Source: an uncultured Porphyromonadaceae bacterium
GTDB lineage: Bacteria > Bacteroidota > Bacteroidia > Bacteroidales > CAMTPD01
Direction: 5' to 3'
DNA length: 11,807 nt
Assembly: GCA_947074265.1 (NCBI GenBank)
Contig: CAMTPD010000017.1
Span: forward strand, 1-11,807
Part shown: piece by piece, positions 94-11,570 of the stretch
Position numbering within the stretch: the first letter of the stretch is position 1
How the letters are laid out: each line of letters opens with the position of its first letter
Notes under the pieces: model-generated
The model's input: the letters and a program-made list of their open reading frames with translations, nothing else
Told to the model about the DNA's origin: nothing
The model's database searches: none
Translations under genes and position numbers: made by a program

Positions 94-537
94 ATGGCTA
101 AAGAAGTTGCTGGACAAATCAAATTGCAGATTAAAGGAGGGGCAGCAAATCCTTCTCCCCCTGTTGGACCTGCTTTAGGTTCTAAGGGTATTAACATTAT
201 GGAGTTTTGCAAGCAATTTAATGCCAGAACTCAGGACAAAGCTGGTAAGATTTTACCTGTGGTAATTACTTACTATGCTGACAAGTCTTTCGACTTTGTT
301 GTTAAGACTCCTCCTGTGCCTATTCAATTGTTAGAAGTAACAAAGGCTAAGAGTGGATCTGCAGAGCCAAACCGTAAAAAGATCGCAGAAATTACTTGGG
401 ATCAGGTGAAAGCTATCGCTGAAGACAAAATGGTAGACTTGAACTGTTTCACACTGAAGTCAGCTATGACTATGGTTGCTGGTACAGCTAGAAGTATGGG
501 TATCACCGTTAAAGGAGAATTCCCGGAGTTAAATTAA
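94..537 (+). CDS. rplK: 50S ribosomal protein L11
   Basis: L11 binds the GTPase-associated region of 23S rRNA at the base of the L7/L12 stalk and takes part in factor-dependent GTP hydrolysis. The 147-residue length is normal for the family. The N-terminal domain carries the proline-rich loop (P20, P22, P23, P26, followed by ALG at 27-29), the part known in the family to bind thiostrepton-type antibiotics with the rRNA. The C-terminal RNA-binding domain ends with the family signature AGTARSMG at residues 129-136. The ATG at 94 gives the expected MAKEVAG start and is preceded by an A-rich stretch without a Shine-Dalgarno motif. The gene ends in tandem TAA TAA (535-540), and rplA starts 15 bases after the first stop, so the two are co-transcribed. 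Nothing appears abnormal. Confidence 0.97.
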
Positions 538-552
538 TAAACTTCAATTAGA

Positions 553-909
553 ATGAGTAAACTTACAAAAAATCAAAAGTTAGCTTTAGGCAAAATTGAA
601 GCTGGGAAATCTTATACACTTAAAGAAGCTTCTGCATTGGTAAAAGAAATCACAACTGCAAAGTTTGATTCTTCTGTTGATGTTGATGTGCGTCTAGGTG
701 TTGACCCACGTAAAGCTAACCAAATGGTGAGAGGTGTGGTTTCACTACCTCACGGAACAGGTAAGCAGGTTAGGGTTCTTGCATTATGTACACCTGACAA
801 GGAAGCTGAAGCACTTGCTGCTGGCGCTGACTATGTAGGGTTGGACGAATATATCGACAAGATTAAAGGTGGTTGGACTGATATCGATGTTATCATCACA
901 ATGGCTTAA
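553..909 (+). CDS. rplA: 50S ribosomal protein L1, N-terminal half (interrupted by in-frame TAA)
   Basis: This is the first 118 residues of ribosomal protein L1, which forms the mobile L1 stalk near the E site, helps release deacylated tRNA, and in other bacteria represses its own operon by binding the mRNA. Recognisable stretches are [16 protein letters not shown] near the start, [16 protein letters not shown] in the middle, and [12 protein letters not shown] at the end. Bacterial L1 is normally about 230 residues long, so this is half a protein. The frame stops at codon 119 (TAA, 907-909) inside domain II, where relatives read on through a sequence like TMPSIMGK. The next codons in the same frame continue the protein. 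Alone, this fragment would hold only the N-terminal segment of domain I and part of domain II, so it probably would not fold as normal L1. Confidence 0.9.
907..909 (+). other. rplA: In-frame TAA inside rplA
   Basis: The codons around this stop read ATG GCT TAA ATC ATG GGT AAG, with the frame unchanged on both sides. Relatives, as I remember them, have a sense codon here, often Ser after Pro. TCA to TAA or GAA to TAA would each need one base change. All seven intact gene ends in the window also use TAA, so TAA is a working stop codon in this genome and general reassignment is unlikely. No frameshift is needed to join the halves. Confidence 0.9.
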
Positions 910-912
910 ATC

Positions 913-1251
913 ATGGGTAAGATTGGTGCTCTTGGACGCGTTTTGGGTCCTCGTGGTTTGATGCCAAACCCAAAGAGTGGAACAGTTACTAACGAAGTTG
1001 GTAACGCGGTTAAAGAAGTGAAACAAGGTAAAATCGACTTCAAAGTTGACAAAACTGGTATCGTTCACGCTTCAATCGGTAAAGTTTCATTCACAGAAGA
1101 TCAAATCCGTGATAATGCAAAGGAATTCGTTTCTACGCTTATTAAACTTAAACCATCAGCTGCTAAAGGTACATATATTAAGAGCATCTTTCTTTCAAGT
1201 ACTATGAGCCCGGGTATCAAAATTGACCCTAAATCAGTTGAAGAAAATTAA
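913..1251 (+). CDS. rplA: 50S ribosomal protein L1, C-terminal half
   Basis: This is the remainder of L1 in the same reading frame as the N-terminal half. The joined span 553-1251 is 231 sense codons plus the internal stop, matching the normal L1 length. The L1 signature [19 protein letters not shown] is intact near the start. The rest of domain II and the C-terminal part of domain I follow, with [20 protein letters not shown] near the end. The ATG at 913 corresponds to an internal methionine of normal L1 (IMGK), three bases after the TAA, so restart by a terminating ribosome is geometrically possible. No separate ribosome-binding site is seen. The good conservation suggests a recent lesion, continued use, or a sequence error. 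rplJ follows after 15 bases. Confidence 0.88.
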
Positions 1252-1266
1252 AACAATTGAGAAGTT

Positions 1267-1782
1267 ATGAGAAAGGAAGAAAAAAGTGCTATTATAGAAC
1301 AAATTGCTTCAACCATTCAGGAATACGGTAACTTCTATCTGACAAACATCGATGCTTTAAACGCAGAGAAAACGTCAGCACTTAGAAGAGAGTGTTTCAA
1401 GAGTGAGGTGAAGATGATGGTTGTAAAGAACACTTTGCTTGAAAAAGCTCTAGGAACTATTGAAGGAGATTTCTCTGGACTAGTTTCAGCTATGAAAGGC
1501 AATACAGCTGTGATGTTCTCACAAACAGCAAACGCTCCGGCTAAATTGATCAAAGCGTTCGCTAAAGAAGCTGGTAAACCTGAATTAAAAGCGGCTTACG
1601 TTCAAGAATGTGTTTACGTTGGTGCTGATCAATTAGACGCACTAGTAAACATCAAGAGCAGAGAGGAACTTATTGGCGACGTTATTATGTTGCTTCAATC
1701 TCCAGCGAAGAACGTTATTTCAGCTCTATCATCAGGTGGACAGACAATTCATGGAGTTTTAACAACTCTTGCAGAAAGATAA
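1267..1782 (+). CDS. rplJ: 50S ribosomal protein L10
   Basis: L10 anchors the L7/L12 dimers to 23S rRNA and forms the base of the ribosomal stalk. The 171-residue length fits the family. The N-terminal rRNA-binding domain is clear (MRKEEKSAIIEQIA, then LRRECFKSEVKMMVVKNTLL), followed by the GNTAVMF and NAPAKLIKAF segments. The C-terminal part (LLQSPAKNVISALSSGG to the end) is the helical region to which L12 N-terminal domains bind. The ATG at 1267 matches the usual MRKE start. The gap to rplA is only 15 bases, so the long structured leader found before rplJ in some bacteria is absent; any L10-L12 autoregulatory site would have to lie inside rplA or further upstream. rplL follows after 45 bases with no terminator. 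Confidence 0.96.
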   Translation: MRKEEKSAIIEQIASTIQEYGNFYLTNIDALNAEKTSALRRECFKSEVKMMVVKNTLLEKALGTIEGDFSGLVSAMKGNTAVMFSQTANAPAKLIKAFAKEAGKPELKAAYVQECVYVGADQLDALVNIKSREELIGDVIMLLQSPAKNVISALSSGGQTIHGVLTTLAER

Positions 1783-10672: not shown

Positions 10673-10715
10673 TATCCTCTAATCTTAAAAACATCTTAAC
10701 TTAATACATTTAGTG

Positions 10716-11570
10716 ATGATCAAGTCGATTCTTACAATGTGTCTTTCGGCACTATTATCCACCTCTCTATTTGCACAAAAAGAGCAGTTAAATGTGATGA
10801 CATTCAATATTCGCTATGATAACCCTTCAGACGCTCCACACAATTGGGGTAATCGCAAAGAATTTGCTGCGAATGCAATTAAATTTTACGATGCAGACAT
10901 CGTAGGAACGCAAGAAGTATTGCATCACCAACTGCAAGATCTGCAATCGGCACTCCCTGAATACGCAACCATCGGAGTAGCTCGTGAAGACGGAAAGACT
11001 AAAGGAGAATACAGTGCAATCCTCTACAAGAAAGATCAATTTAAAATACTAGATAGCGGTACATTCTGGTTAGCAGAAGATATCAATGCTGTAGGCAAAA
11101 AAGGGTGGGATGCCGCTTGCGAACGCGTTGTTACATGGGCGTTGATGCAAGATAAAGCAACCAAAGAGAAGTTTCTATTTATGAATACACACTTCGATCA
11201 CGAAGGTCAAGTAGCACGTCGCAAAAGCGCCAACTTATTATTGGATAAAGCCAAAGAACTGAGCAAAGGTAATCCGGTAGTTGTAACGGGCGACTTCAAT
11301 GCGACAATAGCAGAAGAGCCGATCAAAATCATCACCGACATTACCAATCCGAATCATTTAACCGACTCAAGAACGAAGGCTCAACTGGTATACGGTCCGG
11401 AGTGGACGTTTCACGACTTCGGTCGATTAGATCAAGAAAAACGCAACATTATTGATTATGTCTTTGTTTCTGATAATATAAAGGTTAGTTCTTACGGAGT
11501 TATTTCCGAAACTCTCAATGGATTATATCTATCAGATCATAATCCGATTGCCGTAAAAATAGAGTTTTAA
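10716..11570 (+). CDS. Secreted endonuclease/exonuclease/phosphatase family hydrolase
   Basis: This protein belongs to the DNase I-like metal-dependent hydrolase superfamily, whose members cleave phosphodiester or phosphate bonds in nucleic acids, inositol phosphates or sphingomyelin; the substrate cannot be told from sequence alone. From the ATG at 10716 it has 284 residues. A signal peptide is clear: basic MIK, a hydrophobic core, and likely cleavage after SLFA at residue 20, so it acts outside the cytoplasm. Superfamily motifs are complete: TFNIRYDN (N31), TQE (E67), NTHFDH (H159), GDFNA (D193, N195), IIDYVFV (D247) and SDHNP (D274, H275). A GTG at 10713 is an alternative start, but the ATG begins a normal signal peptide. 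It lies 185 bases beyond the rpoC terminator region and is likely its own transcription unit. No terminator is seen after it. Confidence 0.9.
   Translation: MIKSILTMCLSALLSTSLFAQKEQLNVMTFNIRYDNPSDAPHNWGNRKEFAANAIKFYDADIVGTQEVLHHQLQDLQSALPEYATIGVAREDGKTKGEYSAILYKKDQFKILDSGTFWLAEDINAVGKKGWDAACERVVTWALMQDKATKEKFLFMNTHFDHEGQVARRKSANLLLDKAKELSKGNPVVVTGDFNATIAEEPIKIITDITNPNHLTDSRTKAQLVYGPEWTFHDFGRLDQEKRNIIDYVFVSDNIKVSSYGVISETLNGLYLSDHNPIAVKIEF

Follow-up and report, generated by a model that had tools for sequence, protein, structure and literature searches.

The rplA gene of the window (the whole stretch of 11,807 nucleotides analysed here, contig C17 of a draft genome) is interrupted by a stop codon that is probably an error of base calling or of the consensus in a draft with thin coverage, with a rough probability of 0.75. 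The cause would then lie in base calling or consensus rather than in a mutation in the cell, and the living cell would most likely carry an ordinary, unbroken, single-copy rplA that encodes a normal ribosomal protein L1 of 232 residues. Translation confirms the preliminary description of a single in-frame TAA at codon 119 that splits two L1 halves in the same frame, and its coordinates were right. The L1 frame at 553-1251 comprises 232 codons and a final stop, and its sole interior stop, at 907-909, leaves 118 amino acids before it and 112 after it, the latter piece starting from an ATG (913) three bases past the TAA. The features of this region are as follows:

94..537, forward strand: upstream neighbour, open frame ending in TAA, presumably rplK (name by gene order)
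553..1251, forward strand: rplA frame, 232 codons and a final stop, interrupted once (translation; PF00687 match with one TAA inside)
553..909, forward strand: N-terminal piece of L1, 118 amino acids (TIGR01169 positions 1-114, 141.5 bits)
904..906, forward strand: codon 118, Ala where homologues have Pro (107/107 homologues, 92/92 loci)
907..909, forward strand: in-frame TAA, codon 119 (translation)
913..1251, forward strand: C-terminal piece of L1, 112 amino acids, ATG start (TIGR01169 positions 118-226, 162.1 bits)
1267..1782, forward strand: downstream neighbour, open frame ending in TAA, presumably rplJ (name by gene order)

The two pieces match successive parts of one model, both for TIGR01169 (positions 1-114 and 118-226 of 227) and for PF00687 (positions 1-95 and 99-198 of 198), which, judged from the matches, is not a chance arrangement. 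Neither TIGR01169 score (141.5 and 162.1 bits) reaches the whole-protein cut-off of 216.3 bits. At the DNA level, with the stop read past, PF00687 is matched at 218.6 bits against a cut-off of 32.2, with one TAA inside the match. The claim that both halves are conserved and together make an L1 of normal length thus holds. Beyond the TAA the L1 frame is still open and conserved and, aside from the TAA and codon 118, it is intact and free of frameshifts. A frameshift in place of a stop was rejected because the halves share a reading frame and add up to a normal length. The position of rplA fits the order rplK-rplA-rplJ-rplL-rpoB-rpoC, where the neighbouring frames are taken to be rplK, rplJ, rplL, rpoB, and rpoC from gene order; the name of rpoB is backed also by matches to relatives. 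These remaining operon genes are intact and end in TAA, as previously described. After rpoC, an open frame of 285 amino acids with a GTG start (10713-11570) encodes, as read by eye, a putative endonuclease/exonuclease/phosphatase-like secreted protein.

Two checks proposed in the preliminary description, a comparison with rplA of relatives and a search for a second copy in the genome, were carried out. The locus search covered 110 loci including the window's own, and the codon is spanned in 93 rows, of which one is the window itself; all 92 other loci carry a sense codon at this site, with 20 different sense codons in use. A search of 60 genomes, namely the draft, which is the sole member of its family there, and 59 relatives, detected an L1 match in 58 of the 59 relatives and an interior stop in none. 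The one relative without L1, by protein and by PF00687 profile, is G042 (same order, 95% complete), where the absence is either a draft gap or a true loss. A second rplA was not found in the 2.19 Mb of the 61.48%-complete draft. Among the 120 proteins listed of 8000 scored, none is an L1 closer than 94% identity, and same-species copies may be hidden in clusters because the database was collapsed at 90%. Additionally, a search of titles and abstract openings, with most subscription journals outside its reach, turned up no description of an interrupted rplA gene in an organism of this kind.

A point absent from the preliminary description is that codon 118, directly before the stop, is also aberrant. 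It encodes Ala in the window but Pro in all 107 homologues of 232 amino acids (a subset of the 120 listed proteins, from which 13 of other lengths were excluded) and in each of the 92 other loci with coverage there. At residue 119, 75 of these 107 homologues have Ser and 32 have Ala. Two adjacent codons are therefore off, and no fewer than two bases must differ. Errors in two neighbouring codons, on a contig of a putatively thinly covered, metagenome-type assembly, would fit a cluster of miscalled bases or a consensus built from very few reads, and errors of such size are plausible for a draft of this kind. That both of these neighbouring codons are otherwise near-invariant favours an error in the draft. 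Residues 40, 88, and 182 of the window's L1 are likewise unseen among the 107 homologues, and the resulting five unseen positions exceed the count in 106 of the 107 (leave-one-out range 0-7). This count stands against a draft error, as slight decay or simple divergence could account for it too. So do rpoB and rpoC, where invariant columns hold 0 and 1 odd residues, respectively; these counts do not point to a high error rate, but such residues are expected to be few and the counts cannot decide the matter.

The conservation of both halves in one frame would also be expected if the TAA were read through by programmed recoding, by a suppressor tRNA, or under a changed code, an explanation that is scarcely credible in light of the following. 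First, TAA is the commonest terminator, ending 341 of 446 coding frames on 81 sampled contigs as well as the genes of the operon, and a release factor of the RF-1 family is intact on contig C36. Reassignment of TAA, already considered unlikely in the preliminary description, is for these two reasons very unlikely. Second, no stop anticodon is present among 11 tRNA hits, a partial test at 61% completeness; ten of these tRNAs were named by ARAGORN and the eleventh, cut at a contig end, has the anticodon CAT as read by eye. Third, the RNA at the stop folds no better than shuffled sequences (z -0.92; a fold at least as good in 35 of 200 shuffles), and none of the 92 other loci has a stop. Programmed read-through was consequently left without support, the stop being unconserved and the fold unremarkable.

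The state of the draft bears directly on how the stop is interpreted. The draft comprises 2.19 Mb in 422 contigs, and a sample of 81 contigs (761 kb) was read for single in-frame stops inside genes. Besides rplA, up to seven places read as genes with one in-frame stop, three of them firm and four less firm:

L167:3999, HtpG (firm): halves on NF003555 2-288, then 290-613
L168:3787, reverse strand, Mg P-type ATPase (firm): halves on TIGR01524 13-59, then 62-867; the short first half scores weakly on TIGR01524 (16.4 bits) and above the cut-off on PF00690 (30.6)
L118:1344, DUF5128 beta-propeller (firm): halves on PF17170 2-84, then 92-316
L221:2916, SusC-like receptor (less firm): second half matches just another barrel family, below cut-off
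L124:647, PfkB kinase (less firm): first piece of 30 amino acids, too short
L177:7354, reverse strand, subtilase (less firm): first piece of 25 amino acids at a contig end, too short
L123:2769, reverse strand, hydrazine-synthase-alpha-like protein (less firm): first piece without a family match above cut-off

In the three firm cases both halves fall on successive parts of one profile; the four less firm genes were named by eye, the subtilase also by homology. Real pseudogenes are possible among these interrupted genes since they look dispensable. The coding fraction of the draft (0.82) resembles that of two control drafts (0.84 and 0.78), and the genome is therefore not visibly decaying; decay of the genome as a whole was rejected on this basis.

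The controls were two better drafts, G059 (395 kb) and G002 (400 kb; 795 kb together), in which none of the listed junctions read as a broken gene, with four of eight junctions shown for G002. One doubtful control junction, which ends a complete histidine-kinase ATPase domain and has no family after it, was set aside. A fixed rule applied by itself (a same-frame junction with no ATG within 15 codons) gives six cases in the draft (761 kb), three of them counted as breaks, versus three plus four in the controls (795 kb), so that the excess in the draft rests on the reading of proteins. By homology, interior stops occur in 2 of 105 genes of the draft (rplA, the starting point, and the subtilase) and in 0 of 100 and 0 of 54 genes of the controls, after one, six, and one rows, respectively, were set aside by eye for stops at alignment ends or before a likely start. 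Frameshifts by homology number zero among the same 105, 100, and 54 genes. In simulations, composition detected 187 of 300 stops and 71 of 300 frameshifts; given the latter figure, the lack of frameshifts by composition is weak evidence. The composition-based path search flagged many ordinary gene junctions as breaks in draft and control alike, for which reason only single places, and not counts, were taken from it. Frameshift candidates by composition are few, one without a nearby ATG (L127) and one at L203; the former, at L127:7164-7190 on the reverse strand, is a possible frame change in a His-rich stretch of a region that is otherwise coding. If rates were equal, the chance that all other breaks fall on the draft side would be 0.11 for three breaks and 0.006 for seven. 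With three to seven other breaks, the window would be expected to hold 0.09 to 0.20 and, if all breaks are substitution errors, the error rate would be about 2e-4 to 4e-4 per base.

Taken together, a frame that stays open past the stop, the lack of a stop in relatives, the fragmentary draft, and the other genes with single stops argue for an error in the draft, with the reservation that the excess of breaks depends on how proteins were read and that the other interrupted genes may be pseudogenes. As an artefact, the stop would tell nothing about the cell, and in a draft of 61% completeness an isolated break in a core gene is to be weighed against that draft's other single-stop interruptions. 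Of the options entertained in the preliminary description, error and a recent nonsense mutation remain, whereas read-through lacks a conserved stop or a fold better than that of shuffled sequences and a two-chain L1 lacks positive evidence.

A two-chain L1 would be a natural split of uL1 in which translation stops at 907-909 and restarts at the ATG at 913, with the two chains assembling around a break in domain II. The nearness of that ATG to the stop fits such a split, as does the position of residue 119, which falls in domain II by alignment to solved L1 chains. Domain II is placed at about residues 68-158 because the construct 2oum (137 amino acids) matches residues 159-228 of the window's L1 immediately beyond its own residue 67. 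According to PMC10931766, deletion of domain II is possible and domain I on its own can be built into ribosomes, so a broken domain II would not be absurd; nevertheless, two chains would have to make up domain I, and the deletion data do not show such assembly. Homologue lengths were also considered. Among 120 listed C-half homologues, drawn from candidates of about 62-196 amino acids, 27 (the window's own included) are 110-113 amino acids long and start at the same Met, as a split protein would, but proteins of 175 amino acids, the length that a start at Met58 would give, are equally common (26 of 120). Both classes presumably represent genes cut by contig ends, since random cuts of this kind predict similar numbers of each. 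Moreover, an end at 118 is unique to the window's own piece among the 120 N-half homologues listed, with P0138 ending at 117 and P0170 at 119. A naturally split L1 is accordingly held to be highly improbable. Separately, three L1 homologues of 287-357 amino acids from metagenome contigs (P0001, on a contig of 25 kb, P0004, and P0006) repeat a central L1 stretch in one chain, which is either a misassembly or a real duplication; P0002, P0003, and P0005 are similar in size.

A real nonsense mutation of recent origin in the sampled strain, by which L1 is lost or reduced to inactive pieces and cells live with poorer ribosomes, is unlikely yet deserves more weight than the split protein. The sequence letters themselves carry the TAA, and the draft has further genes that read as interrupted. 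Against this, the rest of the rplA frame is intact except for codon 118, L1 is kept in nearly all relatives, a second copy was not found in the draft, and no excess of frameshifts was seen, with the caveat that their detection was poor by composition and that homology recovered none. If the TAA were real, the likeliest outcome would be the loss of L1 and the next likeliest a restart at 913 to give two chains. The window would then record that a nearly universal ribosomal protein had been lost or split in nature, in a lineage with relatives that retain it, and would put to the test how dispensable the L1 stalk is.

The full-length uL1 of Parabacteroides-like Bacteroidales (for example P0007 and P0009; 94% identity) resembles the window's L1 in its length of 232 residues and in sequence, and the gene order around full-length L1 in the loci searched is the same as in the window; P0007 and P0009 differ in having no stop, with Pro-Ser in place of Ala-stop. 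Escherichia coli mutants lacking L1 are viable, which supports a genuine mutation insofar as loss of L1, here as there, would be survivable, but those are laboratory mutants, and a natural strain devoid of L1 is not demonstrated here. Natural bacteria without a complete L1 do provide a likeness that favours such a mutation: PMC12641178 describes uL1 as absent from some lineages of Patescibacteria. There, however, the gene is missing and its absence is tied to other changes of the ribosome (PMC12641178), whereas the gene in the window is almost complete and carries one stop.
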